Virus record (IMG/VR): IMGVR_UViG_3300038629_000248
Location: 1-30,037 of that record
Strand: one strand, 5' to 3'
DNA from: a virus
DNA length: 30,037 bases
Under the pieces are notes generated by a model. It was not told where the DNA came from. It was given only the letters and a program-made list of their open reading frames with translations, and made no database searches. A program made the translations under genes and the position numbers. Below are positions 10,101-29,736 of the stretch, in pieces (within the stretch, counting starts at the first letter, position 1; each line of letters opens with the position of its first letter).

Positions 10101-13100
10101 TTGCCGATCCAGTTCTTGCCGTTCGGCCATCCACCGATCGCATCACGCAGCGCATGCCAATCCACGCGGCCATCGGTGACGACCTCGCCGTTCTCGTCCT
10201 TGATTACCTGCATGTCGGACATCACCTGGTAGACGGTTTCTTTCGCCAGGCGCTCGGTCTCCTGCTCGATCAGTGGCGCCTTCTCGTCGGCCCACTCCTC
10301 GGACTTCATTTTCTTGTACTGCTTCATCACCTTGGCGTCGACAGTTGCCTCGGCAGTTTCGTTCTTGCGGCCTGCCAGCTGCTGGTACTTCTCCCACTGG
10401 GCATCAGTCATGCCGGCCTGCTCCTTGCTCTGGAACAGCTGCGCGTATTCAGGGGACATACTGGCGATGTCGATCTCCTGCTCGGTGGCCAGCATCTTGT
10501 CGAAGATCTCGGTGATCTCAGGCGACAGCTTGGCACGAGTCAGCCGCGGATCCGACAGCGTCCGGTACAGTCGCTTCAACCAGGAAGTGAATGACGCGAA
10601 CGCTCGGCGCAGGCCGATCGATGGTGCCTTGCCCTCGCGCAGGTAGACCTCGAAAGTCTCGGCCCACATCTCGTGCTGCTCGGTGGTGAGATCCCTGAAG
10701 TTCTCGGCACCGAGCCAGTCGAGCATGGCCTGCTGGTTTTCGGACATGCCGTACTTCTCTACCCAGATGTCCTGGATGTCCAGGAACAGGTGACCGGACT
10801 CGTGCAGGTAGCTGGACAGGTCGGCAGCTTCGGTCAGCTGGATGATGCGCTTGCCACCAACGTCAGGGAAGAAACGACCGCGCTCACCACCTGGATCGTC
10901 CTGGAACAAGAAGTCCTCTTTGGATCCAAACTGTGCATCCTTCACCAGGACCAGGCCACCGATCTGGATGACCTTGCTGCCTGATATTACCGGCATGGTG
11001 CTGTCGCGATCGAAGAAGTAACTGTGCCGCTCGGGATCGAAGCCGACCTGCACCCAGGTAGGATCCTCGAGTGCGGCCTGGGCCTCGGCCATGGTCTCTG
11101 CCTGGTCCTGATTCTTCCAGGCGCCTTTGATAACAGCGGACGGTGCCTTGGCGCCACCAGCTGCTACCTTGATGGCATGCTTGTCCTCGGGGAACGTGGC
11201 ACCCTCGATGACGGCGACCGGCACATGAGACATCGGCCCCTTGCCTTTGCCAGGTTCGTTCTCGTGGATCGTCGGTACCCAGACGTTGTGATCTTTGTAC
11301 GCGGGGATGTCCAGGCGCAGGCCTACCTGGTGGCCGTCCTCGACAGGCACGTTGACCCGTTCTTGTTTGTTGGTGTGCAGAGCACCCATCATGTCGGCTG
11401 TGGTTGCCGGCGTGGGTAGGGATTCGTAGGCGCCGATCGGCTTGACCTGGTTGACCAGGGCATTGTATTCGGCTTTGGTGACGGTGCCGTCCCTGAGTTG
11501 CTGGGCGGCTTCCTTCAGAGCATCGATGCGCTGCAGTACAGCCTTGTGCTCCATGTTCACTCGAGACTTCCGATCAGCGGACTGGTCGGCCAGGTCTCGA
11601 GCTGCTATGACCTCTTCAGGTCTGGCGGTGAGTTGGCTTAGTGATCTGCTTCGCGCAGGCCCTTCACGAACTCCTTCACGTAGTCCTTCCGAGAAAAGGG
11701 CTTGCTCGGTTTCACCCGAGTAGGCGACTTTTTGGGAGAACCCTTCGTAGATCGCTTTTGAGATGTTGCCATTTGCATACTCCTGCTCAAGGATCTGAGC
11801 TATTTCTACTACAACCTTAGTATAGTCTACCTGGGAAAGAATTTCCACTGTGCCTTCAGCCTGGTTACCCTTACCCAGGGAGTTATCCACCACGCTGAAC
11901 GTGACCCTGGGGTCGTCCTTGTAGTGCTCACGCAGCTCCAGGTGAGCCTCGGCTGATTTCATGTGGGTCAGGATGTGCTCTGACATCGGCACGGTGCGTC
12001 CGGTACCCAGTTCTTTTTCCTGCTTCCTGGCTCTCGAGAGTGCGCCGTTTAGGAATGCCTCGGCAGGATCTCGGTAGACAAAAATGATGGTGACATCCTG
12101 GCCGGCATCGAGTGCCTGGTCGATCTTCTCGATCGAGCTGCCGGTGGTACGCATGTTGCTGTCGTACACGATGTGCGCCTGGTCGATCATCTTCTCGTAG
12201 CGCGGCTGGTTCAGTCCGGATGTCTTGCCGGCGCCGGTACCACCAGCAGTGAACAGCACCATGTTGTCGTTCTCGACTGGCTCGGCCAGGCGTATCGCGT
12301 ACAGCTTCTTGGCAAAGGCGCTGGTTGGCTCATGCACAGCAGCGGCTAAGGTGCGATCGCGAATGTAATCGGGTGACATCTCCTTGGCAATATCACCACC
12401 GATGATCTTGCCGCCCCTGGTTTCCTCGATCTGCTCGTACTCTTTCCTGGCAGCAGCGAAGTTCGACAGCTTGTCCGCGATGGCCTGCTCGACCTGGGCG
12501 AACTCGACGGTACGATCGACCTGCTCGGCTGGTGGATCCTCGAGGTTCAGATCCTCGGATCCAGGAAGCTCTGCCAGGGATCCATCAATGTCGGGCTGCA
12601 GGGTCTGAGCGTACTCGACCGGCATCAGCGCCACCTTCTGTGATGCGAATCCTCGCTCACTCAGTGGCAGGTCCTGGACCTCGGGACGGAAGTTGACCCA
12701 GGAGTTCTGGCCGCGGGTCTCGCTCGTAAGCGCCCACCTGGCCCAGGGTGACTTGGTCATCATCATGTGGTTGCGCCATGCTGCCTCCTCACCCTTGGGA
12801 CCGAAGCCGACAGGCGAGAGCGTGTGCGCGTAGTAGTCATGAACGATTCTCAGCAGGTCGTTGTACAGCAGCGGGGTACCATCAGCCAGGGTGCGGCCAC
12901 TGTCCTGCAGTAGCGGGTGCCTGGTGAAGTCCTCACCTGGTGGGCCGAAGGTCTCGGGCGCGGTCTTGTAGAACCACAGGTGATTGTTGGCGTTGACGTC
13001 CTGGCGCATCAGCTTCGAGTCGACGCCTTTCTTGCCGGTGTAGGGTTCTTCCTTGGTCGACGGCCAGGCTTCGGGAGTTATCGGCAGCGCATCGAACTGC

Positions 13101-15286
13101 TCGAGCACCTCGGTACCCAGCTCTTCGTAAGCGCGTTGGACGTCAGGGTTGTCCAGGTCGTTGACAGGCATGTCCTCGTAGGCCTGTTGGATCTCCGTCT
13201 GGATGTTGGACTGGTCAGGTGTGATCTTGCCGGCCTGGTCCTGCGGTTCAACAGGACGACCGGCAAGGCGGGTTGCTACCCTTTGCGAAGTTGCACTTGC
13301 TTGTTCCGTCTGCGGGGGACGAAAGTTGCCTGTGATGCTCCCGAAAGGGAGGGTACCTTCTCGCGAACCGTATAGCCAAGCGCGGCTGCGTCCGCTATGA
13401 ATTTCTCGTGCGAGAGGGCCAAGGGCGATCGCTGCCTGCTTGACCGCTTCGTGGTGAGCTTCGATCTCTTGCGCATTAGTCGGGTCTCCTGCAAAGTAAA
13501 CCTCCAGGGATTCGTCCGTGATCGTGAGACCAGGAAGACCTGAAGCGTCAATGATTTCTTGCGCCTGGTCCTGAGACAAAGGCGCAACCAAAGGAAATGT
13601 TATCACACTCGTGACAAAACTCCCATCCTCGAAAACGTGACCGAAGTCTTCTTTCCCATCAAATTCTTCACGGACATGAACCTCTTCCTGGTTGAAGTTC
13701 TCGGCGAACTTGGCCAGCATCGACAGTGTCTTCGCGCGGTCGGCTTCCTTGAACGACAGGTTGAGTCCGAGCGATGGCTCGAGTTCACCACCGAATAGGC
13801 CGGTGGTATCAGTGCGGTTGATCTCGACAGACTTCAATCCACCCAGGAGATAGTTCAGGCTGTCGGCTGCTACGTCCTGCAGTAACTTGTGGGCCTCGAG
13901 GTCGCCGCGGTTGGCAGCTGCCTGGAGTGTCGAGATCCCAGGGATGGATCCGGTAGCGGCTGACAGGTTGACCTGGATCTCTGCCCTGGTCGATGCAGCC
14001 TTGCGTGATTTCAGTAGCGCGTCGATGCGCTTGGCCACGCGGTTGAGATGCGTCTTGTCAGCTGGGTTCAGTACCGGACCTCGAGGCAGATCCGTCTTGC
14101 GGCTGTCGACATTCTTCTGAGTGCGCTGCAGGCTGTAACCACCGGCCTCGAGGACCGCGCGGTACTCGCCAGTCAGGAACAGCTGCTCGAAGTCTACGGT
14201 GCCGAGGATCTCCTCGTGGGTCAGATCACCATCGTTCAGGATCTGCAGTGCCGACCTGGTCTCACCACCTCGAGCTGTTTTCTCCATCAGGGTCTTGGCA
14301 AAGGACCAGACAGTTTCCTGGACCTCCATCGGGCGCATCCCCGTTTTCTCGCCAGCCTTCCTGGTCAGTACGTTCATTGCCAGGTAGCCAGGCTTCTTGC
14401 CAGGCATCTCGGCTGCACCGTTCGATGCGAATATGGTCTGCTCGAATCCAGTGTACGCGGCCATCCAGGCGTCGAGTGTTACCTCGTTCGGGTAGCCACT
14501 GAGGTTCAGCATGAATGAGTTTGCCTTGGCGCCAGACAGGACCAGGCTTGCTGGATCCGGAGATGTCAGTGCGCGGTAGCCATTGATCGCCCAGGCCTGC
14601 ATGACGCTGTCGATGCCTCGCTCACCCTGGACGTTGGCGCCCATGATGTCGAGGATCCGCTTCGTGTCCACTGGTCGGCCTGCTTTATCCCAGGCTGTCC
14701 AGATCTTGAGGGCATTGATGGTGTTGCCCTCGACTGAGTTGCGTGGCGAGAACGCAGCCAGGAGAGCTGTGAAGCGCGGTGCATCTTTGCCGAATACGGT
14801 GGTGATCGCGTGTTGACTGTTGGCGTACCAGCCTACCTTCGACCGGCCAGCTCGAGCGACCGCGGCCATCTCCTGGAAACCAGGCAGCTGCTTCATCAGC
14901 TCGAGGACATTACGCGCGGACTGCGCAGTCTTCAGTGCTGCGATTTCATCAGGCTGCAGGTACCGCTCGATGGCACTGAGGCCTTTGACTTCCTTCTTGA
15001 TCGCGCTCCACCTGGCCTGGTCTTCCGCGGTCAGCTGGTAATCCTGTGGCGGTACCGGAAAGCTCTTCGACTTCTCGACGTAGTCAGTGACCGGACCCTC
15101 GACCGCGATCTCACCACCTGCCTCTTCGATCCTGGCGATCAGCGCATCGGCTTCTCGGTTGACCAGGGTCTCGAGGCTGGTGATGGCCTGCTCATCGGTC
15201 TTGCCCTCGAGGATCTCCTGGCGTAGGAAAGCGATGTCGTTTTCAGACAGCGTCCCGACCTTGGCGATACAGGCGTCTAACGGCAT
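7190..15286 (-). CDS. Giant polyvalent virion protein (2,698 aa), probable ejected internal protein
   Basis: Modules seen in order. About 145-340: a domain with AFSPRNSVEGN, ALKIW and EVTLDAWMA that recurs in very large phage proteins. About 705-880: a domain with NDLLRIVHDYYAH and ETRGQNSWVN (856-865). About 960-1200: a P-loop domain with Walker A GGTGAGKT (1015-1022), followed by YDSNMRTTGSS and an Arg-rich segment as in zeta-toxin-like kinases. About 1310-1450: a domain with GLRLDIPAY and VGFDPERHSYFFDR. About 1480-1590: a metallopeptidase-like motif HESGH (1495-1499) with possible third ligands E1539 or E1543. About 2365-2698: a gp16/LPD38-like C-terminus with a hydrophobic stretch near 2550-2576. 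A packaged, ejected role is inferred from this C-terminus and from neighbouring gp14/15-like genes. AGGG about 7 bases upstream supports this start. I see no lysozyme or transglycosylase motif. Confidence 0.85.
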   Translation of the reverse strand: MPLDACIAKVGTLSENDIAFLRQEILEGKTDEQAITSLETLVNREADALIARIEEAGGEIAVEGPVTDYVEKSKSFPVPPQDYQLTAEDQARWSAIKKEVKGLSAIERYLQPDEIAALKTAQSARNVLELMKQLPGFQEMAAVARAGRSKVGWYANSQHAITTVFGKDAPRFTALLAAFSPRNSVEGNTINALKIWTAWDKAGRPVDTKRILDIMGANVQGERGIDSVMQAWAINGYRALTSPDPASLVLSGAKANSFMLNLSGYPNEVTLDAWMAAYTGFEQTIFASNGAAEMPGKKPGYLAMNVLTRKAGEKTGMRPMEVQETVWSFAKTLMEKTARGGETRSALQILNDGDLTHEEILGTVDFEQLFLTGEYRAVLEAGGYSLQRTQKNVDSRKTDLPRGPVLNPADKTHLNRVAKRIDALLKSRKAASTRAEIQVNLSAATGSIPGISTLQAAANRGDLEAHKLLQDVAADSLNYLLGGLKSVEINRTDTTGLFGGELEPSLGLNLSFKEADRAKTLSMLAKFAENFNQEEVHVREEFDGKEDFGHVFEDGSFVTSVITFPLVAPLSQDQAQEIIDASGLPGLTITDESLEVYFAGDPTNAQEIEAHHEAVKQAAIALGPLAREIHSGRSRAWLYGSREGTLPFGSITGNFRPPQTEQASATSQRVATRLAGRPVEPQDQAGKITPDQSNIQTEIQQAYEDMPVNDLDNPDVQRAYEELGTEVLEQFDALPITPEAWPSTKEEPYTGKKGVDSKLMRQDVNANNHLWFYKTAPETFGPPGEDFTRHPLLQDSGRTLADGTPLLYNDLLRIVHDYYAHTLSPVGFGPKGEEAAWRNHMMMTKSPWARWALTSETRGQNSWVNFRPEVQDLPLSERGFASQKVALMPVEYAQTLQPDIDGSLAELPGSEDLNLEDPPAEQVDRTVEFAQVEQAIADKLSNFAAARKEYEQIEETRGGKIIGGDIAKEMSPDYIRDRTLAAAVHEPTSAFAKKLYAIRLAEPVENDNMVLFTAGGTGAGKTSGLNQPRYEKMIDQAHIVYDSNMRTTGSSIEKIDQALDAGQDVTIIFVYRDPAEAFLNGALSRARKQEKELGTGRTVPMSEHILTHMKSAEAHLELREHYKDDPRVTFSVVDNSLGKGNQAEGTVEILSQVDYTKVVVEIAQILEQEYANGNISKAIYEGFSQKVAYSGETEQALFSEGLREGVREGPARSRSLSQLTARPEEVIAARDLADQSADRKSRVNMEHKAVLQRIDALKEAAQQLRDGTVTKAEYNALVNQVKPIGAYESLPTPATTADMMGALHTNKQERVNVPVEDGHQVGLRLDIPAYKDHNVWVPTIHENEPGKGKGPMSHVPVAVIEGATFPEDKHAIKVAAGGAKAPSAVIKGAWKNQDQAETMAEAQAALEDPTWVQVGFDPERHSYFFDRDSTMPVISGSKVIQIGGLVLVKDAQFGSKEDFLFQDDPGGERGRFFPDVGGKRIIQLTEAADLSSYLHESGHLFLDIQDIWVEKYGMSENQQAMLDWLGAENFRDLTTEQHEMWAETFEVYLREGKAPSIGLRRAFASFTSWLKRLYRTLSDPRLTRAKLSPEITEIFDKMLATEQEIDIASMSPEYAQLFQSKEQAGMTDAQWEKYQQLAGRKNETAEATVDAKVMKQYKKMKSEEWADEKAPLIEQETERLAKETVYQVMSDMQVIKDENGEVVTDGRVDWHALRDAIGGWPNGKNWIGKAVGGGLDPALYAEAHGFASVKDMYEQVKNSDTLKQASDKAAEAIMIEKYGDILNDGSLEQEVREAMLNEDQAALLLMELKAEGSSSAQKIDRKTLKHEAEQLIGTMTYKEIRPSKYYNQMIKAAQAAATATEDATPHKIQQLANHYLYKAALEAKDKMDKARKKIRSVQVRIAAGKIKPTQVDQQYIEAMAALANAYDMRLTPVEREAYARRVLDFYEGQTKPFNKETGEGNENAELFGLEMLDPNLAAAIRFRHENGTLEGFEVTTFDEMTVNEVRGVTDMLDHLRYVGGQIADKGNAEAALIREAGLESIEENGGKDSSVQRGKVRKGKMAKLTWGDMVNSIPSLGNMIRKLDGFKEGGWAFEHIYKPINDAMTRKYELQMQMYKEMEAFMQNMSRVGLRENDAMPFTKEDGTEDDFTSSEVFMMAVYWGTESSRQSLMDGHGLSQNDVEQLMLRLTNEQLTLVNNVWAMNESQWPQLQEAAKAMLGIAPPKLEAVSFEVNGVQMTGGHMQLMYDSQALELADEQMRGMNTAQVVPMQAGSTHARKGSGGRPVLLDTRNITQSVEEKTHYIAFATVGRHLRSILNNKKIQNMIEKKHGAPFYENMLHAITSISRAEPARETSRWLARLSRHMRGAATMMHLAYSIRNVAQQFSAIPIAAREVGVLKWAQAMGHFGSRPLEVMAMVDEKSKFMENRAQVVNREAKEYMKKVMATSRGEAMWNTVKSRGFILQTMVDSTVAYPTWYARYTSAMEKHGDEKRAIIEADQSVAESVGSGSDMHLGRIMQSNQNEFVKTLTVFGSWFNAYYQRLYKSSKGGTNFLSAAFLMDGLLMPIIAANLAQVLIMDVPEDDEEYVEWAAENTFKFLLGTVPLVRDISSAWEGFAPTMPISAVAVAPVRIKTEIESYMKGNQSGIKLAADIGRAAGSIIPMPGSGNLWRFLDYTDSYLEGNEGKNFNIYQALAEGRDKN

Positions 15287-16975: not shown

Positions 16976-17204
16976 TGAGCACCCCCAGGGCCACGCACTC
17001 GTCGTACATCTTGACCAGGTTGCGATCGACTTGACCCTGGGTGAGCCTGGCAGCATTTCGCAGGTGCGCCTCGATGGCGTTGCGATTCGGTCGAGCACCA
17101 GGCAGCACCAGGAACTTGAGCAGTGCGCTGACTGCGCGTTCCTTCGGAGGCCTGACGATCCTGGTTGCTGGATCCGGAAGCTGTGGTGGTTGGCCGTTAC
17201 TCAT
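16959..17204 (-). CDS. Small basic protein of unknown function (81 aa)
   Basis: A protein of 81 aa, starting at ATG 17204, which overlaps the preceding stop by one base (TGATG). The first 20 residues are proline-rich and polar (QPPQLPDPATR). The rest is predicted helical with many Arg and Lys residues (NRNAIEAHLRNAARLTQG, RNLVKMYDECVALG). No motif or family is recognised, and there is no signal peptide or membrane segment. It lies between the collagen-like inner-membrane protein and the 37-aa acidic protein, so the basic and acidic neighbours could be partners, but that is only a guess from charge and position. Confidence 0.6.
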   Translation of the reverse strand: MSNGQPPQLPDPATRIVRPPKERAVSALLKFLVLPGARPNRNAIEAHLRNAARLTQGQVDRNLVKMYDECVALGVLNARRP

Positions 17205-17719
17205 CAGTGTTCATCCAGGATGTGGGCCTTCATCGCGTCATCGAATGACACGGCTGCAGTGCTGGCGCCGGCAGGCCCAGGTGGACCGGCAGGCCCTGCT
17301 ATTCCCGCTACTCCCGCTACTCCTCGAGGACCAGCTGAACCTGGGGGACCTGCTATTCCCGCTATTCCCGCTATTCCTGGAGGACCGGCCTGGGCCTCGA
17401 GTTCGCTGACGATTGCTTCCAGGCGCTCGACATCCTCGATGAGATTCGACAGCTCGTCATACATCGCGTCATTGCCGACGATGTCTCTGGGTGCTTCATC
17501 GACCAGGCCGACAGCCACCGCGGCATCGCGGATCGGAGTTGTGTCGGTGACCTGGCCAACAACCAGGGATCCACCAGTGGCGACCACCAGGCCCCAGATC
17601 AGCATGGCGACTTTCTTGGTGGCCATAGCAATCTCGAACCACTGCTTGATCTTGCCGGCTCGAGACAGGATGACCTCTTCGGTGTCCTCCTCGGGGTAGT
17701 CTTTGGCTTCTTCGTTCAT
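17204..17719 (-). CDS. Inner-membrane protein with coiled coil and collagen-like repeat
   Basis: A protein of 171 aa from ATG 17719 (ATGA overlap, GGAAGA upstream). A start four codons earlier is possible but lacks the coupling. Order of parts: acidic cytoplasmic N-terminus (1-20); a basic stretch; one membrane segment (about 37-56, AMLIWGLVVATGGSLVV); a linker; a short coiled coil (about 86-110, ELSNLIEDVERLEAIVSELE); a collagen-like Gly-X-Y run (about 112-152, with GPPGIAGIAGIA, GPRGVAGVAGIA, GPPGPAGAS); and a polar tail. Predicted topology is N-in, C-out, probably trimeric because of the Gly-X-Y repeat and coiled coil. Collagen-like repeats are common in phage fibres, but a membrane-anchored one next to an exported one is unusual. 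Function unknown. Confidence 0.8.
   Translation of the reverse strand: MNEEAKDYPEEDTEEVILSRAGKIKQWFEIAMATKKVAMLIWGLVVATGGSLVVGQVTDTTPIRDAAVAVGLVDEAPRDIVGNDAMYDELSNLIEDVERLEAIVSELEAQAGPPGIAGIAGIAGPPGSAGPRGVAGVAGIAGPAGPPGPAGASTAAVSFDDAMKAHILDEH
17298..17378 (-). repeat. 9-base tandem repeats encoding the collagen-like run (inner-membrane protein)
   Basis: Two sets of three 9-base units: gctattccc/gctactccc/gctactcct at 17298-17324, and gctattccc/gctattccc/gctattcct at 17352-17378 (plus-strand reading). The two sets start 54 bases apart, so the region also looks like an imperfect 54-base duplication. Each unit encodes one Gly-X-Ala triplet, so slippage would change the stalk length by three residues without a frameshift. 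Confidence 0.85.
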
Positions 17720-18135
17720 TGGATCTTCCACACGGCTGAGACCACGCCGGCAGTGTGACTGTTGGCGGTCCCCATCTTGAGAGACAGCAGCACATCACCG
17801 AAGGTATCCGAGTCGATCACCTGGGCCACACCCAGGGCCACGCTGTTCTCACCGTCATACCAGGCGCCAGAGAAGCCTACCTGCAGTTTCGTGGTGGTGC
17901 TGGTGAAGTCCATACCCGACATCGCAAAAGCCAGTGACAGGCCTTGTGCGAAGTCTGACTCGGACAAACCGATGTCCATGCCGTTGAATCCATCGATGCC
18001 ATCGATGCCATCGATGCCGTCCTGGCCGTCGACACCGTCGACACCGTCGACACCAGGCTCACCCTGGTGATGTCCACCGTCAGCGTTGATGGCAAATGAC
18101 ACCCAGAATAACAACAGAAATGCCATTGACTTCAT
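17716..18135 (-). CDS. Exported mini trimeric autotransporter: signal peptide, collagen-like stalk, YadA-like membrane anchor
   Basis: A protein of 139 aa; ATG 18135 overlaps the previous stop as ATGA with AGGA 7 bases upstream. Residues 1-18 form a signal peptide (MKSMAFLLLFWVSFAINA). Residues 25-54 are ten Gly-X-Y triplets, mostly GVD and GID. Residues 58-75 are a helix (SESDFAQGLSLAFAMSGM). Residues 84-139 give four beta strands (LQVGFSGAWYDG, SVALGVAQVID, DVLLSLKMGTANS, AGVVSAVWKI). This helix-plus-four-strand order and the ALGV and GTANS landmarks match the YadA anchor, which trimerises into a 12-stranded outer-membrane barrel. I infer an outer-membrane trimer with a tiny collagen-like passenger. 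The last strand ends KIQ rather than the usual terminal aromatic residue. A remote alternative is an unrelated Lom-like outer-membrane protein. Confidence 0.78.
   Translation of the reverse strand: MKSMAFLLLFWVSFAINADGGHHQGEPGVDGVDGVDGQDGIDGIDGIDGFNGMDIGLSESDFAQGLSLAFAMSGMDFTSTTTKLQVGFSGAWYDGENSVALGVAQVIDSDTFGDVLLSLKMGTANSHTAGVVSAVWKIQ
17991..18054 (-). repeat. 9-base tandem repeats encoding the collagen-like run (YadA-like protein)
   Basis: Two perfect three-copy arrays on the plus-strand reading: catcgatgc at 17991-18017 (Gly-Ile-Asp units) and gtcgacacc at 18028-18054 (Gly-Val-Asp units). They are separated by about ten bases encoding Gly-Gln-Asp. The exact repetition suggests recent expansion or slippage; each 9-base step adds or removes one collagen-like triplet in frame. 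Confidence 0.88.
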
Positions 18136-18627: not shown

Positions 18628-19024
18628 CTTTCGGTACCGGCGTGAATGTCAGGCCTACTTCCAGGTCGATGAAGCCGCGGCGATCGCGCTTGCCGGTGAC
18701 CTTGTACGCGCATGGCTCGTGCTCGTCGTCTTCCTTCTTCTCGTGCTCTACCTGGAGAGCCTTCAGCTCGGTCATGATCTTGACCAGGGCAAGCAGGCCT
18801 GGGATCTCGGTCGGCTTGCCGATGGCTTTGATCATCTCGTCCATCTTCTTCAGCTTCGCGGCAGACGCTGCACGGTAGGCCTCGGCCTGCTCGTGCTTCA
18901 TGTCATGGAAGTGTCGAGCAATCGCCTCGAGTCCTGGGACCGCGATGATCTTGGCCATCAGGTTAACCTTGCCGCCGCCCTTCTCGATGCGTTCGATCTC
19001 TTCTTTGCTTATCGGATTAGGCAC
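18620..19024 (-). CDS. Unknown soluble helical protein (134 aa)
   Basis: Starts at GTG 19024, with GAGGAG 8 bases upstream, and overlaps the preceding stop by 8 bases (GTGCCTAA). About the first 100 residues are predicted alpha-helical and rich in K and E (KLKKMDEMIKAIGKP, LKALQVEHEKKEDDE). A short C-terminal part may be beta-stranded (HEPCAYKVTGKRDRRGFIDL, GLTFTPVP). There is no membrane segment, and I recognise no family. It is the first of the small genes inserted between the 850-aa and 2,698-aa ejection-protein genes, so a virion-associated role is possible. Confidence 0.7.
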   Translation of the reverse strand: MPNPISKEEIERIEKGGGKVNLMAKIIAVPGLEAIARHFHDMKHEQAEAYRAASAAKLKKMDEMIKAIGKPTEIPGLLALVKIMTELKALQVEHEKKEDDEHEPCAYKVTGKRDRRGFIDLEVGLTFTPVPKDE

Positions 19025-21569
19025 GGAGACAGCTCCTCAATTTATCAATGTTTCTCGAACGGGCCTGCTGATCTTTCCACAACATTCCAGCGTTCTGCGT
19101 TATCGTCAACACGTTGCCGGCAGGGTCGATCCTGTCTTCAACGAGTTCGATGTTACTCAGATTCTGCTGGCTGAGAACCCTCGGGGCTGCAGAAACCATA
19201 CGCTCGGCCACCAGCTCCTCGATGACCTGGCCACCAATCCGACTGCCGGCATCGTCCATATTCTCGTAGCCTTTCTCATTCAGCCTGGCCACGATGTCGG
19301 CGTAGGGGATCTGCATCGCCTCGGTTGCCTGGTAGTTCGCACCCTCGGGGAAGGAGTAGTTGACCGACTGAGTTCCTGCGGTCTTGGTCATGCCCTTGGC
19401 ACGGCCCACCTGGGTGGCTCCCTCGGCGCCCTTGCGTCCGGTGATTGCCTGGTACCCACCAAATTCATCCTGGGCTGTGACGTTGTACACCGTGACGGTA
19501 TCGCCAAAGCGAAGCTGGCTCGGACCCATGTCATCTTCCTGCCTGGCAATGTGAGCTGCCACGGCCTGGGCATTGCCGGCGTTGGTATTGGTCAGCTCAC
19601 CTCCGGATCCGATTCGCATCGCCAGGAACGGTTGACCAGGTGCAGGCGCCTCGGCCTGACCATCCTCGAAGGCGGCTTCCTGTTGCATGAACTCGCCGGC
19701 TACGTCTACTTCGGGACCGACTATCTCGAGATTGAAGTCCGCGAAGACATCCTCGAGCGTCCACTCGGATCCATCGGGTTTGGTCTTCCCCTCCCTTTTG
19801 AGTTCCTCGTACTTTGTGGTAACGAGCGCGGGGATGAGCGTAGCACTTTGCCTGGCCGTAGCCGCAGACTGTTGACCTGTCGCGACGAGCTGCGATGTAA
19901 TCCTCTCGTAAATCTCGTCGGCTGCGTTCTTTGTCTCAGCCGCCTCGTTGGCCTTAGCGAGTAGCGTCTTGATGTATTCACTGTCGGAGTCCTCCTCGAG
20001 TTCAGTCTGATTCAGCAGACCTTCGCTGGTCTTGATGTGTGGACGGATCAGCGCCAGCTTCGCTTCATCGTTGGCGAAATCCTTCAGGAAGGTGGACAGG
20101 GGAATGGACACATCACCACCGGATCCATCCATCTGATCGATGATGTAAGCGGGTGGATTGTCCAACAGATCAACACCCTCGGAACTCAGGAATACTTTCT
20201 GGTCCGGAGCGGCACCCTCCATGAATTTCTCGAACTCGTCAGCTGATCGTTGGTTGGTCTTACTGGCCTGCGCCAGGTAGAGCAGAGAGTCCAGGCGCTC
20301 TTGCTCGAACTCAGCGCCTCGGCGTTTGTTGATCTTCTTGATGACCTTGCCCATGGCACGGCGCTCACGGTTGGCCGCGTAGTCGACGCCCTTGATGGTC
20401 GCGGCCATGCCACCACCACCGACGATCGTGCCGATCAGTGTTACAGCCTGGCGTTGTCCCTGGATGTCGAGGATCTCCTCCCAGCCCTGGGCAGCGGCCA
20501 GCTCTTCATCCAGCTCGAAGGCGTAGGCATTGATGGTCTGGGTGGCCGTGGCAATCTGCTCGGTGCCGGCTTCCTGGAGCAACCACTTCTTGATCGAGGA
20601 CTTGATCCCACCACCACCGCCAGCTTCACCGATCAGCTTCTCCAGGCGCTTGGTCGGCAGCTTCTCGGTTGCGTACTCGAGTGCCGCATCGATGGTCGCG
20701 TAGGTGGTGGCCGTGTCGTGGTCCTTGCCACCGAGGATCGCGGATCCATAACTCGACAGGTAGGTTTTCCCAGTCAGGTATCCGAGTGTCGGGTTGATCT
20801 TGCCGCGGGTGGCCACAGAGATCGCGAGACCTGGTGCCATGTCGGCGCCCATCTGGAAGCCCTGGCGTACACCCTGTTCCATGGTGGTCAGATCTGCTGG
20901 CGTGAGCCTGCCAATCTCGCTCTCGGCAAACCCCAGGTTCTGCTTGTGTCCCTCGATGCGCCGTTCAAGCTCTGCGTTCCAGGCATCGGTATCCTCTTCA
21001 CCTTCCATGGCCATGTGGATTTGATCGCGCATCTTGCCCATCACGCTTGGGATGCTACCGAAGGCATCCTTCCAAGAAGTGAATCCCTCGCGCTTCATTT
21101 CGTTGAGCATCAGGATCGCTGTCTCGTCGTAGGTCTTGCCCATGCCGATCATCATGCTGTCGCCCAGGCCCTCGAACATACGCTCGTTGACCTCGTACCA
21201 ACTGCGGCCAGCTTCGTTCTCCAGGCCGGTCAGGTTGCTGAGATCATCGTATGAGATCTGGGCCGCGTCCGGATCCTCGAGGTACTTGGCGACCGCTGGG
21301 TTATCCAGCTCACTCAGTGGCTTGTCCCAGTCCTCCTGTTTGATCAGCGCAGTGGCATCTTGCTTGGCGATCTCGTCACGGTTGGCCTTGACGGCGCTGA
21401 CAGGTACGCCGGTACGGTTCGACAGCTCCAGGTCCTGGGCGTAGGTCTCGGGATTTCCCTGGGATGCTGCGTTCAGATTGGAATAGGCAGAGCTGTTCGG
21501 CAGCTTGAAGATGTCCTCTTCTTCAAGCGGTGCGTCCCAGTCCTCGTCGGATATGCGAAGGTCGGCCAT
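19017..21569 (-). CDS. Large internal virion protein resembling the N-terminal part of gp16-like ejected proteins (850 aa)
   Basis: Residues about 35-125 carry a pattern common at the start of huge phage virion proteins: NPETYAQDLELSNRTGVPVS (39-58), then ALIKQEDWDKPLSELDNPAV and ISYDDLSNLTGLENE. Residues about 460-520 contain another recurring segment (VDLLDNPPAYIIDQM, GGDVSIPLSTFLKD, LIRPHIKTSEGLL). Around 370-395 is a glycine-rich hydrophobic stretch (VTLIGTIVGGGGMAATIKG). No transglycosylase motif like that of T7 gp16 is visible. The start overlaps the previous stop (TAATG). I infer a role in DNA ejection from these patterns and from the preceding gp14/15-like genes. The matching C-terminal part appears to be in the 2,698-aa protein ten genes downstream. 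Confidence 0.75.
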   Translation of the reverse strand: MADLRISDEDWDAPLEEEDIFKLPNSSAYSNLNAASQGNPETYAQDLELSNRTGVPVSAVKANRDEIAKQDATALIKQEDWDKPLSELDNPAVAKYLEDPDAAQISYDDLSNLTGLENEAGRSWYEVNERMFEGLGDSMMIGMGKTYDETAILMLNEMKREGFTSWKDAFGSIPSVMGKMRDQIHMAMEGEEDTDAWNAELERRIEGHKQNLGFAESEIGRLTPADLTTMEQGVRQGFQMGADMAPGLAISVATRGKINPTLGYLTGKTYLSSYGSAILGGKDHDTATTYATIDAALEYATEKLPTKRLEKLIGEAGGGGGIKSSIKKWLLQEAGTEQIATATQTINAYAFELDEELAAAQGWEEILDIQGQRQAVTLIGTIVGGGGMAATIKGVDYAANRERRAMGKVIKKINKRRGAEFEQERLDSLLYLAQASKTNQRSADEFEKFMEGAAPDQKVFLSSEGVDLLDNPPAYIIDQMDGSGGDVSIPLSTFLKDFANDEAKLALIRPHIKTSEGLLNQTELEEDSDSEYIKTLLAKANEAAETKNAADEIYERITSQLVATGQQSAATARQSATLIPALVTTKYEELKREGKTKPDGSEWTLEDVFADFNLEIVGPEVDVAGEFMQQEAAFEDGQAEAPAPGQPFLAMRIGSGGELTNTNAGNAQAVAAHIARQEDDMGPSQLRFGDTVTVYNVTAQDEFGGYQAITGRKGAEGATQVGRAKGMTKTAGTQSVNYSFPEGANYQATEAMQIPYADIVARLNEKGYENMDDAGSRIGGQVIEELVAERMVSAAPRVLSQQNLSNIELVEDRIDPAGNVLTITQNAGMLWKDQQARSRNIDKLRSCLRA

Positions 21570-23941: not shown

Positions 23942-26785
23942 TTATTGCCCCTGCTTCGTTGGCGTCTTCGATGCGGTGTCTTTCACATCGTAAACGTAGG
24001 CCAACATCTTCACTGGTGCGGTGGCCTTGATTGCAATTCGCGGATCCGTTTCGCTGGTCCCGTTGTACGGGAACGGAAAGTGATCGTACTCCTCGGTGCC
24101 GGCGACCACTGCCTTGCCATCCTCGACGGTCGGCATCGGCGCCAGGTTGTTGAGATCATACCCGACAGTGACGCCACCTTGAACATAGTTGCGCATCAAT
24201 AATCCGGTGTTGATGATTCGCTTGCGCTGGGCCACGACCGAGATGTTCGCGAAGTCGGTCAGCTTGTTGGACAGGTACGTTGCCTCGTAGCGGAAGCCGA
24301 CCGTGACATTGGCCGCGACATCAGCACCAGTCACGCCTGTGATCTGGTTGCCGCTGATGGTGAAGTCTCCGACATCGACGCCGTCAACCCAGGCCGCGAC
24401 GACCCAGGTGTTGAAGAAGGTGCCATTCATGGTGAGCGTGGTGCTACCAGGTGAGGCGAAGTACTGGAACGAATCGTGGTGCCTGGAGTCCAGGCCACCC
24501 TGGGCCAGGTTGAACGGTGCGAACTTCATCACCGCGTTGCGAGGGCCAGCTGTGGTGATCCAGACCTCGTCCTCGTCCTCGCTCGGCAGCACGGCCACGC
24601 TGACCACATCATCCTGGACGCCCAGGTTGTTGCGAATGGTGATGCGAGACCAGCCGAGGATCCCCTCAGTGATGTCGCGCAGCAGGACCCGCATCGTGCC
24701 ATCGGCCATGACAGCATAGACTCGAGTCTCGGGGTTCCTGGCAAACACGATCTGAATCACACCACCACCTTGGCGCAGGATCTCGGAGTTCAGCATGTTG
24801 AAATCTTCGACAGCATGCTTCTCAGTGTTCAGGCTGAAGTCGATGCCGATCAGTTTGTTGGCGCCACGTTGCACGAACAGGATCTCGTTATCGAGTACGA
24901 TCGGGACGATGTCCGCGGTGCCGATGTCGGAGCCTGCTTTGAGGTTGGTGTTAAGGGCCGTCAGCACTTCGCCGAAGGTGCTCGAGCGCACATCGATCTC
25001 GGAGATCGCGGTGGCCGCAACCAGCCTGGCAGATGGAGCCAGCCAGTGGATCCGCTGGGCAGCGCCGAAGCCGATGGTCTTCTTGATCGATGCACTCGCG
25101 CCCTCGAGGAGCGTGTCGAAGCTCTCGTAGAAATCTGACTCTGACCCCCAGATGCGATTGCCACCAGCGAACCACAGCCGGCCCTCATGGAGTGCGACCG
25201 CGGAAGGCATAACAAACTTGCCACCCCAGGATCCGATGAACCAGTCAGGGTACTCGGTAGAGATCGGACCATTGAACGGCACATACCATTCGATCTCGAC
25301 GTCTTGGTTGTTGTCATTTTCGACGGTTCTGCCCTGGCTCTCGAGGGTGCCGTAGGCGTAGGAGATCTGCATGTCGAGATCTGATGTCGCACCTGGTGTG
25401 ACCAGCTCGAGGCGGTAGAAGATCTCGGCGCCATCGAGGCCGTCATTGAAGGCCACGTTGTTCAGGTCGCCGCCACCAGTGAAGTCTCCACCAGGTACCA
25501 GCTGCCAGGTGATCTCATCGAAGGATTTCTGCAGCTCGATGCGGGTGTAGGCGCCGGTCGTCTGGACGTCATAGTTGAAGGTTCGAGCATCGCCGGTACC
25601 AAACACGAAGACACCCTGGGTGGCCGTGCCGGCACTGATGCCGCTCACTGCCTGGATCTGGCCGTTGACGGCGAGTTTGAGCAGGACGCCATAGCCAAAG
25701 TCGTTGTTGCCGAAGCCCATGCCTGGTGGTGATGCCTCGAAGTATGGCCGGCTCGGTGCCACGGTCATGTTGCCGTCGATCACGCCTTGCGGTTCCATCG
25801 TGACGTTGCCGATGTTGATGGTCTCGTAGGGTCCGAAGACATTGACGTACCGCTGGACCGAGAAGCTGGTGGCATTGTGCCGGCGCACCTCAAACGGGAT
25901 CCAGCCCTGCTGAAAGGTCAGCGGATCCTGACCCCCGCAGAAGTACAGGACGTCAGCTGACTGCGCCCAGCGCAGAGATCTCACGACCTGGTAAGCCACC
26001 TGGGAAGTGTTCACGATTGCTTTCTGAAGTGCGCTCTCGAGGCTCAAGGCCAGCGTGGTATCGCCCAGCAGTTCAGCGAAGATCATCCTGCCCTGGCGTA
26101 TGTTCGCGTTCGACAATGTGACGGTGATGTCGTCGTTGCCTGGGTCAATCTCGATGTGGTGGATGCCGATCTCGAGGAAGGCCTCGAACAGATCCGCGGA
26201 GTCAACGCCACCTGTGCCGATCTGGCAAAGGACCTGCCCCTTGTCGACCTGGAACAGGAAGCCGTGCGGGACACCATTCTCGGTGGTGCTCGAGGTCTGC
26301 CAGACTTTCGCCTCGTCGGTGCCGGTGCCGGTCATGAGCAGCCTGAAGCCTGAGATCGAACTGACGGCGCCACCGACATCGGCATCGGTCCAGCCGGTAC
26401 CCAGCGGCGTATCGAAGTTACCCTCGAGCCAGGTCGTGGTGGTCAGTGCTCTCTCGAAGAACTCGTAGGTGTTGCCCCTGATGAAGTCAAGTTCTGGATT
26501 ACCAGCGGCAGCGGCGAACAGCAGCATCGCTGGGTCATCCAGGCTGGTCGGGAACGGGACCAGCAGGGTCTCATCATCGACGGTGTGCGTGATGCTGCCT
26601 GGTGAGTTGTCCAGGGTCTCGGTGCCTGGTCGGAATGACATCGGCCCCAGGCGCTCCGGAGTGAAGTTCTCCATCAGCTCACAGCTGTTGTCTATCCTGG
26701 TGACGTCCTCGCGCGCGAAGGCATCCTTGCTCACCTCACCACGGTTGAACTTGTTGAATAGGCCCTTGCCAATACTCGAGGCCAT
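23942..26785 (-). CDS. Tail nozzle protein (T7 gp12 / tail tubular protein B-like), 947 aa
   Basis: The N-terminal 55 residues carry the diagnostic pattern of this family: LFNKFNRGEVSKDAFARED, then SCELMENFTPERLGPMSFRPGT. The rest is beta-rich, as expected of the propeller and nozzle domains. Segments such as VVRSLRWAQSADVLYFCGGQ, PLTFQQGWIPFEVRRHN, AVALHEGRLWFAGGNRIWGS and FGEVLTALNTNLKAGS also fit. It is somewhat longer than T7 gp12. The protein forms the distal tube of the short tail. The start overlaps the adaptor gene's stop by one base (TAATG), so the adaptor-nozzle order is conserved. Confidence 0.88.
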   Translation of the reverse strand: MASSIGKGLFNKFNRGEVSKDAFAREDVTRIDNSCELMENFTPERLGPMSFRPGTETLDNSPGSITHTVDDETLLVPFPTSLDDPAMLLFAAAAGNPELDFIRGNTYEFFERALTTTTWLEGNFDTPLGTGWTDADVGGAVSSISGFRLLMTGTGTDEAKVWQTSSTTENGVPHGFLFQVDKGQVLCQIGTGGVDSADLFEAFLEIGIHHIEIDPGNDDITVTLSNANIRQGRMIFAELLGDTTLALSLESALQKAIVNTSQVAYQVVRSLRWAQSADVLYFCGGQDPLTFQQGWIPFEVRRHNATSFSVQRYVNVFGPYETINIGNVTMEPQGVIDGNMTVAPSRPYFEASPPGMGFGNNDFGYGVLLKLAVNGQIQAVSGISAGTATQGVFVFGTGDARTFNYDVQTTGAYTRIELQKSFDEITWQLVPGGDFTGGGDLNNVAFNDGLDGAEIFYRLELVTPGATSDLDMQISYAYGTLESQGRTVENDNNQDVEIEWYVPFNGPISTEYPDWFIGSWGGKFVMPSAVALHEGRLWFAGGNRIWGSESDFYESFDTLLEGASASIKKTIGFGAAQRIHWLAPSARLVAATAISEIDVRSSTFGEVLTALNTNLKAGSDIGTADIVPIVLDNEILFVQRGANKLIGIDFSLNTEKHAVEDFNMLNSEILRQGGGVIQIVFARNPETRVYAVMADGTMRVLLRDITEGILGWSRITIRNNLGVQDDVVSVAVLPSEDEDEVWITTAGPRNAVMKFAPFNLAQGGLDSRHHDSFQYFASPGSTTLTMNGTFFNTWVVAAWVDGVDVGDFTISGNQITGVTGADVAANVTVGFRYEATYLSNKLTDFANISVVAQRKRIINTGLLMRNYVQGGVTVGYDLNNLAPMPTVEDGKAVVAGTEEYDHFPFPYNGTSETDPRIAIKATAPVKMLAYVYDVKDTASKTPTKQGQ

Positions 26786-27993
26786 TACGGACGATCTCGA
26801 TTGATATTCCCGCGGTAGAGGCGTGAGCGGCTCCAGCTGCCCAGTGCCAGGCGCTTCGGCACACCATTGATGGCGTTGGTGCTCATGGCTTCACGGCGCC
26901 TCGCAGTGTACTGAGCGACCGCATGCTCCTTGTTGCCGCGGGGGATGTTGGCATCGAGTGCCATCCTGGCAGCGACCAGGCGCTTGAAAAAGTCAGGCCA
27001 GTTGTCGTAGTCGGTCAGGAAGGCCTTGCTCACGTACTCGACATAGATGATCTGCTGACTCGAGTAGATCAGCGTGTTGCCGGTACCCTGGTCAGTCTGC
27101 TGGACGTAATCTCGCAGCGGTGTCCGCATCAGTTCATCGACGTAGACGCCATTGATCCGGTGCCAGTTGTCGGGCAGCTTCATGACAAACTCGTAGCCCC
27201 AGGGAGGATCGATCGATGGATCGTAGAACAGCTGGTCAGACTGCAGGCCGAAGTTCCAGGAGGTGTCCTCGAGGACGGCGCCGACCAGGCCATTCGACAG
27301 CGCGATCGAGATCCGGTTCTTGGCGATGCTGTCGTCGGTGTTGCTGACAATGGGATCCAGATCCAGGATCTGCAGGCAGTCGTTGTAGATCGCACGGAGT
27401 GTGTCGGTCAGGACGTCCGGAGCAAAGCCCCTGGTTTCTGGTTGGTTCGATGCCTCGACGGCCTTCGATACCTCGATGCGCTGCTCCAGTTTTGTCTGGA
27501 TCATTTCCTCTGCATCGGGATCGTACTTCCAGGCCAGCTCCCTGGCCATGTAGGCCGAGACCACCTTCGCGAACGATGGCGGCATATCGGCCAGCTGCGG
27601 ATCCGTGTGGTTGATCAGGTAGCGGATGTACGGGAACTCGAAGTCGGACAGCAGGTAGGTGCTCTCGCGAACCACCCTGGTGATGGGTGACTCTTCTCGA
27701 GCGTCCTGGTAGACGGCAGGCTTGCCATCGATCAGGTTGAACAGGGCCACAAAGTCTGCCGGCAACGGGGCCTCGAAGTCGAAGCCACTGTCACCAGAAG
27801 GAGCGCCACCAGTCAGCTGGGTCAGCAGGGTTGCGTACCTGGGCTTGACTATCTCCAGGCAGTAATCGACTGCATCCACATCGTACTGAGCATCAAGGTC
27901 ATAGCGGGTCGAGACATCGTCGGTGTCCGTCAACAGTCGCCGCTCACCAAGGAGTTGAAGTGTGCCGTTGTATAGCGACAGCTTTGTAGCCAT
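26785..27993 (-). CDS. Tail adaptor (T7 gp11 / tail tubular protein A-like), internally duplicated (402 aa)
   Basis: At 402 aa this is about twice the usual gp11-like size. The two halves share landmarks: LYNGTLQLLGERRLLTDTDD (7-26) pairs with IYNDCLQILDLDPIVSNTDD; LPADFVALFNLIDGK pairs with LPDNWHRINGVYVDE; MPPSFAKVVSAYMARELAW pairs with NWPDFFKRLVAARMALDANI. The family protein joins the portal to the nozzle; the gene immediately precedes the nozzle gene, as expected. ATG 27993 has a GAGG/AGG purine-rich site upstream and lies 13 bases after the previous stop. The tail is basic (RSRLYRGNINRDRP). Confidence 0.85.
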   Translation of the reverse strand: MATKLSLYNGTLQLLGERRLLTDTDDVSTRYDLDAQYDVDAVDYCLEIVKPRYATLLTQLTGGAPSGDSGFDFEAPLPADFVALFNLIDGKPAVYQDAREESPITRVVRESTYLLSDFEFPYIRYLINHTDPQLADMPPSFAKVVSAYMARELAWKYDPDAEEMIQTKLEQRIEVSKAVEASNQPETRGFAPDVLTDTLRAIYNDCLQILDLDPIVSNTDDSIAKNRISIALSNGLVGAVLEDTSWNFGLQSDQLFYDPSIDPPWGYEFVMKLPDNWHRINGVYVDELMRTPLRDYVQQTDQGTGNTLIYSSQQIIYVEYVSKAFLTDYDNWPDFFKRLVAARMALDANIPRGNKEHAVAQYTARRREAMSTNAINGVPKRLALGSWSRSRLYRGNINRDRP

Positions 27994-28006: not shown

Positions 28007-28534
28007 TTATGCGACCGCCGCCTGGATCTTTTCACCGGCATACTTCATCGCCTGGACCTGGGTGTTGAAACCCTCCTTGACCACGGCGCCGGTTACCTTG
28101 TTGCATACAGCAAACTTGCGCACGGTGCCGAAGTGGCGAATTACGTAGTCGTTCCCGATGTCGATCTCTGCTGCGATCATGGGTGCGGCCAGTTCAATCC
28201 AGTCGTACACCTGGACGGTTAGCTCCATTGCAACCGTGCGGCGTATGACTGCCATTGCAATCCAGGATCCGTCTTCCGCGGTGACGCGGATCATATCGAG
28301 ATCTCTGAATCGGGTGGCCATGAATGTCCAGGTTTTCTGATCCTCGACCTGGGCCTGGTTGTAGTGCGATGGCATGAAGCAGGCCCAGTTGTTGTGCATC
28401 TGGTCCTCGGTCTTCACTTCACCTGGTTTGACAGGGTTAACAGGTAGCCGTACCTTCTCGGTGTCGGCCTTCTGTACTGCTGGTGCTGCTGCGGTTGTAG
28501 TAGCCTTCTGTGTTGCGGCTTTCTTTGCAGTCAT
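28007..28534 (-). CDS. Unknown late protein, first gene after the capsid terminator (175 aa)
   Basis: Residues 1-25 are rich in Ala, Lys and Thr and likely disordered (TAKKAATQKATTTAAAPAVQ). The rest is a compact alpha/beta domain with HNNWACFMPSHYNQAQVED, TWTFMATRFRDLDMIRVTAE and DYVIRHFGTVRKFAVCNKVT. A final helix (NTQVQAMKYAGEKIQAAVA) closes the protein. I do not recognise the family; similar-sized proteins between capsid and adaptor genes in podoviruses are usually listed as hypothetical virion proteins. ATG 28534 has GGAGA 8 bases upstream, and that site immediately follows the T-tract of the terminator at 28551-28575, so a read-through transcript would be needed for expression unless an unseen promoter exists. 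Confidence 0.75.
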   Translation of the reverse strand: MTAKKAATQKATTTAAAPAVQKADTEKVRLPVNPVKPGEVKTEDQMHNNWACFMPSHYNQAQVEDQKTWTFMATRFRDLDMIRVTAEDGSWIAMAVIRRTVAMELTVQVYDWIELAAPMIAAEIDIGNDYVIRHFGTVRKFAVCNKVTGAVVKEGFNTQVQAMKYAGEKIQAAVA

Positions 28535-28893: not shown

Positions 28894-29736
28894 TTACGTA
28901 GTGTTAACTGGGAAGGCAGCTGTATCATCATGCAGCATTTTCACTACACCGATGTCCTGCAACAGCTTGGATCCCATGAAGGTTGTGCAACGCGCCCACG
29001 ACTTGTCGTTCTTGCGGTCGTAGCCCACTTCGGTGCGGATGTTCTCGATGTCACAAGCGTGACCAATCGCCGCCTTGGCATGCATGAAGCACGTTGCCGA
29101 GGCAGATCCGGTACCAGGAAGTCCTGCGTCCACGATCCAGTTGACGCCGTACCAGTTGAAGGCACGAGATTTACTTACATTCTCGAACCCCTTCAGGTTA
29201 ACGAAGTCGCTTGAAGTGAACTGCTGGAAACCCATCAGTTGGCCCACGAACGCTGGCGTCACAATCGCGAACGGCTCTTCATCCAGAGCGAAGTTATTCG
29301 CGAGGATAGTCCGAGCTGTCGATACGAGTGCGATGGTGGCAGCGGCTGCGCCACCCCAGGCAGTGGAAGCGGTTAAGAGTTCGGTGTAGATGTCATCATC
29401 AATCTTGCGGTTGATGACCTTCATCGAGGTCTCTTGCATAATCCGACGACCATCACCCTGGGACGCATAGATGTTGAATCTGGTGCGTTCCGGAACATCG
29501 TGCCACTCTTGGAGCAGCGCGGTGAATTGGTTCAGGTTGTCGGGGCGAGTTGGAATGTCACCATTCACGCCACGAGTTGTTGCCGTTGCCCCACCGCTGT
29601 CAGCGACCAAAAATGTGGCTTCGTTGCCATTGATTTCTGTCTCTACGGTAGTGGTCCGACGAGCCAGACTCTGGCCCTTTTCAAACCCCATGACGACTTC
29701 CTGGCGAAACATTTCTTGGAAGGCTGTATCAGCCAT
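28894..29736 (-). CDS. Major capsid protein (280 aa)
   Basis: Sequence features fit a short HK97-fold phage capsid protein: an extended N-terminal segment (FQEMFRQEVVMGFEKGQSLA), an E-loop-like region (ATTRGVNGDIPTRPDNLNQF), a helix-rich centre (MQETSMKVINRKIDDDIYTE, TARTILANNF), an F-x-I-V-T-P segment followed by a QLMGF loop, and a C-terminal part (FMHAKAAIGHACDIENIRTE, GSKLLQDIGVVKMLHDD). At 280 aa it is compact. ATG 29736 has AGGAG about 7 bases upstream, the best ribosome site in the window, fitting a highly expressed product. It is the first gene after the promoter at 29869-29898 and is followed by the small capsid-associated gene. The family call rests on pattern and gene order; no delta domain or maturation protease site is obvious. 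Confidence 0.85.
   Translation of the reverse strand: MADTAFQEMFRQEVVMGFEKGQSLARRTTTVETEINGNEATFLVADSGGATATTRGVNGDIPTRPDNLNQFTALLQEWHDVPERTRFNIYASQGDGRRIMQETSMKVINRKIDDDIYTELLTASTAWGGAAAATIALVSTARTILANNFALDEEPFAIVTPAFVGQLMGFQQFTSSDFVNLKGFENVSKSRAFNWYGVNWIVDAGLPGTGSASATCFMHAKAAIGHACDIENIRTEVGYDRKNDKSWARCTTFMGSKLLQDIGVVKMLHDDTAAFPVNTT

Follow-up and report, generated by a model that had tools for sequence, protein, structure and literature searches.

A tandem gp11-type tail adaptor in an uncultured podovirus lineage, with one to five domains per chain and a proposed stacked-ring assembly

The window, a virus record of 30037 bases (IMG/VR record IMGVR_UViG_3300038629_000248) from an uncultured short-tailed phage, encodes on its minus strand a tail adaptor that carries two tandem gp11-type domains, and its relatives carry between one and five such domains in one chain. 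We favour, as reasonably likely, a reading in which one gene supplies covalently linked stacked rings; the stacking itself is what we infer from the repeat, the fold of both halves, the one-to-five series, a single ancient duplication, additional copies that are exclusively of the first-domain (N) type and a split of end features along the chain, all of which are observed. Specifically, each domain would be a gp11-type ring subunit, so that the protein would represent a concatenated tail adaptor of which twelve chains would assemble beneath the twelve-fold portal. All last (C-type) domains would form the ring gripping the portal through the C-terminal tail, and the N-type domains would add one ring per copy below it, so that the nozzle would be contacted by the first domain. 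How many N-type repeats the gene holds (none to four) would set the number of rings (one to five) and hence, presumably, the length of the tail barrel. In its broadest form, to which we give slightly better than an even chance, the proposal is that this lineage counts its tail rings within one gene: the barrel would vary from one to five rings by unequal recombination, end faces being kept on the first and last domains and a neutral ring-to-ring face being copied between them.

The gene and its two halves are located as follows.

26785..27993, minus strand: adaptor gene, 402 amino acid residues (aa), two tandem gp11-type domains (open reading frame (ORF), phrog_394, self-alignment, AlphaFold2)
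27415..27993, minus strand: residues 1-193, the first domain (N-type), predicted to form the ring on the nozzle side (fold match, domain tree)
26788..27414, minus strand: residues 194-402, the last domain (C-type), predicted to form the ring on the portal side (own model, fold match, domain tree)

A preliminary description of this DNA had placed a tandem duplication of the gp11-like fold at 26785-27993, without stating the minus strand; the coordinates are correct, and the duplication is borne out by sequence, profile and structure prediction. The landmarks listed there recur as claimed in both halves (LYNGTLQLLG 7-16 and IYNDCLQILD 202-211, TDD 24-26 and 219-221, LP 77-78 and 273-274, MAR 149-151 and ARM 342-344), and residues 1-193 and 194-402 align far beyond shuffled sequences, with a BLOSUM62 local score of 75 against 30.9 ± 4.9 that none of 2000 shuffles reaches. 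Global alignment gives z 7.7 with BLOSUM45 (0 of 1000 shuffles) and z 5.3 with PAM250 (p 0.001). Moreover, hhalign joins ten N halves to ten C halves over 142 columns with a probability of 92 and an E-value of 6e-7, and the external family phrog_394 (tail protein) matches the adaptor in two stretches (2.9e-34); Pfam yields no match to it above the cut-off. The two halves of the window adaptor share just 21% identity when placed on the hidden Markov model alignment. AlphaFold2, supplied with an alignment of 37 two-copy proteins including that of the window, models the full adaptor with a predicted local distance difference test score (pLDDT) of 85 and gives both halves two helices, six strands and two helices in the same order; the C half modelled alone reaches a pLDDT of 89.4 and a predicted template modelling score (pTM) of 0.79. 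The prediction thus yields two folded halves rather than a single gp11 fold with unrelated extra sequence. In VIA, model residues 2-196 match the Carin 1 connector with Z 17.8 and the C half matches it with Z 16.4, T7 gp11 scores Z 12.5 in the N-half and C-half searches alike, and Foldseek was also run on both; as modelled, both halves match solved gp11-type adaptors, with a four-helix bundle and a beta insertion. The two-domain protein is present at 16 loci on other contigs (74-100% identity) and is therefore not an assembly artefact. Sequence and models together indicate a true tandem duplication of the adaptor fold.

The preliminary description was right about the two-domain duplication and had not noticed that it belongs to a copy-number series of one to five domains among relatives. 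These relatives were collected by searches with the capsid protein, the nozzle and the adaptor itself, and their end-to-end domains were counted with a domain profile whose E-values are inflated because it was trained on adaptors of this lineage. As an untrained check, phrog_394 was run on seven proteins of the lineage (that of the window and six relatives) and counts 5, 4, 3, 2, 2 and 1 stretches in the latter. Excluded before counting were four isolate loci and the locus of the window itself (L016); 16 loci with adaptors at contig ends and the frameshifted L052 (two ORFs) were left out of the tally, and 20 loci lack an adaptor, mostly on contigs that end soon past the capsid gene. The tally comprises 90 distinct complete adaptors: single-domain chains number 20, two-domain chains 53, three-domain chains 14, four-domain chains 2 and five-domain chains 1. 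These figures are not population frequencies because sampling began from one capsid. The five-domain adaptor is that of L068; L115 has four copies and L070 three. At L059 the fourth domain, at the contig end, is still of the middle type, and at least five copies are therefore likely there. The near relatives L113 and L065, with three and four copies, share 72% identity in the portal, 75% in the first domain, 68% in the last and 65% at the start of the nozzle; judged by sequence, portal and nozzle stay alike while the domain number varies. The alignment of the five-copy protein with relatives of unequal copy number was not used for folding because it pairs repeats in shifted register.

In the capsid phylogeny (84 rows), the basal lineages are single-domain, and at least two domains are found in almost every member of a crown group of 73 rows (99 in the Shimodaira-Hasegawa-like approximate likelihood ratio test, SH-aLRT). 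Three copies arose several times, adaptors with four or five occur in a single region of the tree, and the nested clade formed by L087, L119 and L122 (support 98) is single-domain. At least 10 copy-number changes are counted on this tree, and 6 on an earlier tree of 66 rows.

The history of the repeat is recorded in a tree of 126 domains, which includes 30 of the 50 two-copy proteins then known. All 44 last domains form one clade (SH-aLRT 99), the 65 first and middle domains form another (98) with all 20 middle domains inside this N-type clade, and the nested single domains (L087, L119, L122) stand beside the last-domain clade (93), a topology that shows a single ancient duplication, with every additional copy being N-type. 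Recent copies are visible within single proteins: in L068, domains 2 and 3 are 64% identical, and in L046 domains 1 and 2 are 56% identical. Head and body log odds, trained on two-copy proteins, classify the bodies of the middle domains as first-like in 20 of 20 cases (+92 to +242) and give the nested singles first-like heads (+40 to +61) on last-like bodies (-127 to -176). A comparable head/body pattern, in which the body scores are weaker, is seen in single-copy outgroups, and ancestry therefore accounts for part of it; the nested singles may be reversions, although retention is also conceivable since the outgroups share the pattern. Unequal recombination between repeats, inside their domains, is the probable route by which copy number changes, a proposal prompted by nested singles that resemble a first-type head on a last-type body and by middle domains that have a first-type body and often a last-like head.

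The chain positions also differ in the features that, in T7 gp11, contact the neighbouring parts of the tail. The accessible text of PMC6702177 describes an alpha1-alpha2 loop that binds the six-fold nozzle, in two alternating conformations in neighbouring subunits, a C-terminal embracing helix that binds the portal and a fibre dock held by the gp11 domain itself. The corresponding elements of the window adaptor are these.

27940..27948, minus strand: G16-E17-R18, helix1-helix2 loop of the N-type domain (retained in first domains and single-domain adaptors)
27328..27363, minus strand: residues 211-222, with DDS at their end, which form the helix1-helix2 loop in the C-type domain; internal version of the loop (column 30)
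27841..27846, minus strand: K50-P51, where helix 2 ends in the N-type domain; predicted contact face between rings (column 54)
27256..27258, minus strand: W246, C-type counterpart of the K50-P51 position, kept in single-domain adaptors (column 54)
27406..27444, minus strand: 13-residue linker (184-196) from the last helix of domain 1 to the first helix of domain 2 (AlphaFold2 model)
26788..26841, minus strand: basic C-terminal tail, residues 385-402, in last domains only; putative counterpart of the T7 embracing helix (column 191)

At alignment column 54, at the end of helix 2, tryptophan occupies 17/17 single and 44/44 last domains and 0/45 first and 0/20 middle ones, and proline shows the mirror image (45/45 first, 20/20 middle, 0/44 last, 0/17 single). 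At column 21, in the helix1-helix2 loop, lysine or arginine is found in 14/17 single, 44/45 first, 1/20 middle and 0/44 last domains, and serine at column 30 in 20/20 middle, 41/44 last, 0/45 first and 1/17 single domains. Lastly, the tail tryptophan at column 191 is present in 44/44 last and 12/17 single domains and in none of the 65 first and middle ones. By analogy with T7, the nozzle-binding loop is recognisable in the first domain and the portal-binding tail in the last, middle domains having neither, and the two faces of each domain are of the end type or the internal type according to chain position. Such a split is what stacked rings would predict; domains that share one ring should keep both faces.

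Coevolution was assessed with partial distance correlations, controlling for the other proteins, in 41 genomes with a portal, a capsid, a nozzle and at least two adaptor copies. For the nozzle, the correlation is with the first domain (0.53; last domain -0.11), and for the portal it is with the last (0.51; first domain -0.07); no permutation out of 2000 is as high as the nozzle-first or the portal-last value. With near copies removed (n=34), the values are 0.48 for nozzle-first, -0.09 for nozzle-last, 0.51 for portal-last and -0.09 for portal-first. Gene adjacency would lead one to expect the opposite pattern.

Several observations weigh against stacking, or against this order of the rings. 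In the 12 genomes with at least three copies the nozzle correlates with the last domain (0.355; 4/2000 permutations) and hardly with the first (0.09), and in two-copy genomes (n=23) the portal-last value falls to 0.24 (54/2000). Moreover, the first-domain signal resides in the body and not in the loop-bearing head, and controls without an expected contact are similar in size (terL-last 0.41, upstream small gene-first 0.37); coevolution therefore leans to stacking in a mixed way and is given modest weight. Among the 20 middle domains, no more than 13 have a last-like head. The C-terminal tail can only sit at the end of the chain in any case. The pTM of the full model is 0.62, so that the angle between the halves is not fixed and their arrangement is left open; furthermore, the two ends of the chain should both face the portal in an up-down four-helix bundle, so that the linker would have to run along a ring. 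Two domains sharing one ring would also have a precedent, by analogy, in the tail tube of T5.

Of the two consequences of the duplication that the preliminary description had offered, an additional ring placed between portal and nozzle is a better fit than the twelve-domain ring from six chains. The latter, a single pseudo-twelve-fold ring in which N-type and C-type domains alternate to match the six-fold nozzle, resembles the T5 tail tube proteins, which, according to the accessible part of PMC9022992, are trimers rendered pseudo-hexameric by a tandem duplication of the tube domain; it would also suit the alternating loop conformations of T7 gp11, which make specialised alternating domains plausible, and the two domains of the window protein do divide the symmetry of the ring. 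It fits the relatives poorly, because they have one to five domains, five does not divide twelve, and portal and nozzle are unchanged: the five domains of L068 and the fourth, middle-type domain of L059 do not fit twelve, and three or four copies would need four or three chains against the same nozzle and portal. Domains in a shared ring should, in addition, all keep portal and nozzle features, whereas column 54 splits by position without exception, and we regard this arrangement as quite unlikely. A single canonical C-type ring, with the N-type domains hanging outside as fibre-docking or receptor-contact modules, is also unlikely, if a shade less so. Long appendages on the chain of the single adaptors of Vibrio phages VP2 and K300, the outward insert of DEV gp83 (in the available text of PMC10925440) and the fibre dock within the gp11 domain (PMC6702177, as far as accessible) make outward modules conceivable, but the N-type domain retains the full adaptor fold and the GER loop, which touches the nozzle in T7, and in the full set of 41 genomes it is the first domain, not the last, with which the nozzle correlates.

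Stacked rings in the reverse order, with N-type rings at the portal and the C-type ring at the nozzle, would account for the nozzle-last value of 0.355 against 0.09 for nozzle-first in the 12 genomes with at least three copies; the placement of tail and loop by analogy with T7 and the portal-last correlation of 0.51 against -0.07 for portal-first in all 41 genomes speak against this order, which appears highly improbable. Stacked rings with the C-type ring at the portal and the N-type rings towards the nozzle remain the reading that we favour.

The adaptor lies directly before the gp12-like nozzle gene in a podovirus-type block, as is the case for gp11-type adaptors, and the gene order in the relatives is terminase (terL), portal-type connector, capsid, small gene, adaptor and nozzle. 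The neighbours in the window are the following.

23942..26785, minus strand: nozzle (gp12-like) gene, 947 aa, immediately downstream of the adaptor (phrog_376 2.3e-66)
28007..28534, minus strand: small gene between capsid and adaptor (phrog_26742 9.3e-9)
28894..29736, minus strand: major capsid protein, search handle for relatives (PF19821 1.1e-23, phrog_3437 2.2e-52)

A dependence of nozzle length on copy number was considered and rejected: in part of the tree the nozzles of some three- to five-copy relatives, namely L066/L067 (1476 aa), L111 (1627 aa) and L068 (at least 1286 aa), are much longer than those of complete two-copy relatives (845-945 aa), but the nozzle of the four-copy L115 measures 891 aa, so that no general link holds. 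The L066 nozzle (L066:11208-15632) contains a Kelch-type beta-propeller at 880-1121. Elsewhere in the window, the minus strand encodes a protein of 2698 aa (7190-15286) that matches phrog_9880, DUF7178 and Zeta_toxin (28.8 bits, cut-off 22.3) and is perhaps, by its sequence, an injected polyvalent protein; a protein of 850 aa with an LPD22 (large polyvalent protein) domain (19017-21569; 9.3e-16); and, near fibre-type genes, two short overlapping genes with collagen-like repeats (17204-18135), one of which has a weak YadA-anchor match.

Some adaptors of the wider collection are organised differently. At L052:3913-5012 the reading frame shifts between the domains of a two-copy adaptor, through mutation or sequencing error, leaving two ORFs, and the two-copy adaptor at L069:2506-4135 is read in the same frame as the gene before it, no stop codon separating the two. 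At L141, L142 and L143 a single adaptor domain follows about 116-192 in-frame residues that do not match the domain profile, the start codon being uncertain. In the Vibrio phages VP2 (L018:7995-10220) and K300 (L019:7995-10247) one adaptor domain opens a protein of about 740-750 aa, and in VP2 it is followed by immunoglobulin-like (Hoc-like) domains and a glycine-rich end. In the Manatee Spring phages, the gene before the adaptor was rejected as a second adaptor.

In a search of 50,697 records of isolated phages, matches spanning 80% of the protein were absent for the window adaptor and likewise for the adaptors of a two-copy and a three-copy relative, and the window capsid has one match, an unannotated record at 24.9%. 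A search of bacterial genomes with the adaptor alignment found none, and one with the capsid alignment found two contigs of metagenome-assembled genomes (MAGs). These, L169 and L170, were binned as Glaciecola and Muricauda MAGs, belong to the same capsid lineage and carry two- and three-copy adaptors; the binning may not point to the host. BFVD predicted structures of 583 and 1139 aa match the two-domain model, and relatives are therefore already present in sequence databases; the longer one (A0A516M5L4, a viral protein of 1139 aa; template modelling score 0.68, 36% identity to the two-domain model) has a length that may fit six domains.

If the favoured reading is true, a single gene with one to five ring domains would represent a natural series in which the other partners are well conserved, and it would let one ask how ring number bears on tail length, on the symmetry change from portal to nozzle and on fibre docking. 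It would also provide a clean case of a binding interface divided between the ends of a growing repeat protein. No report of a tandem, fused or duplicated podovirus adaptor was found in the full-text literature, a coverage from which subscription papers are mostly absent.

With T7 gp11 and KP32 tail tubular protein A (phrog_394; BcepC6B gp11, 207 aa), the window adaptor shares the fold of each half, the gene place between capsid and nozzle, and the helix1-helix2 loop and C-terminal tail features; those proteins have one domain per chain, whereas the window protein has two and its relatives up to five. The closest solved relatives by sequence are the Carin 1 connector (8ck1_E) and LME-1 orf17 (9efk), matched by the C-type profile at 1e-9 and 7e-8; they are also the closest by fold (Z 16-18 and 14-16) and are single-domain chains, unlike the window adaptor. 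The tail tube domain of T5 has a fold different from that of the adaptor. The T5 tail tube protein is, like the adaptor, a ring protein duplicated within one chain, although its duplicated domains share one ring, unlike the stacking proposed here (PMC9022992, accessible part). Multiple rings are known from crAss001, whose tail barrel consists of five dodecameric rings, stacked on one another and made of paralogous proteins, with a height of about 23 nm for the five (PMC10172136); the number of ring genes differs among clades and ring number is tied to tail length. Podoviruses other than crAss001, which was presented as an exception, had been seen with one such ring, as stated in the accessible sections of PMC10172136 and PMC10136315. 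The crAss001 rings R1-R5 (gp43, gp40, gp35, gp34) have in common with the adaptor a fold class (VIA Z 7-9, weak), diverged paralogues and a number that varies between clades, up to five rings; a search of solved structures by sequence gives no match of the adaptor to these ring proteins. In crAss001 the ring proteins are separate genes and chains, whereas here one ORF carries all the domains. On the favoured reading, the adaptor would unite an established adaptor fold with an established multi-ring principle in one chain whose domain number varies.

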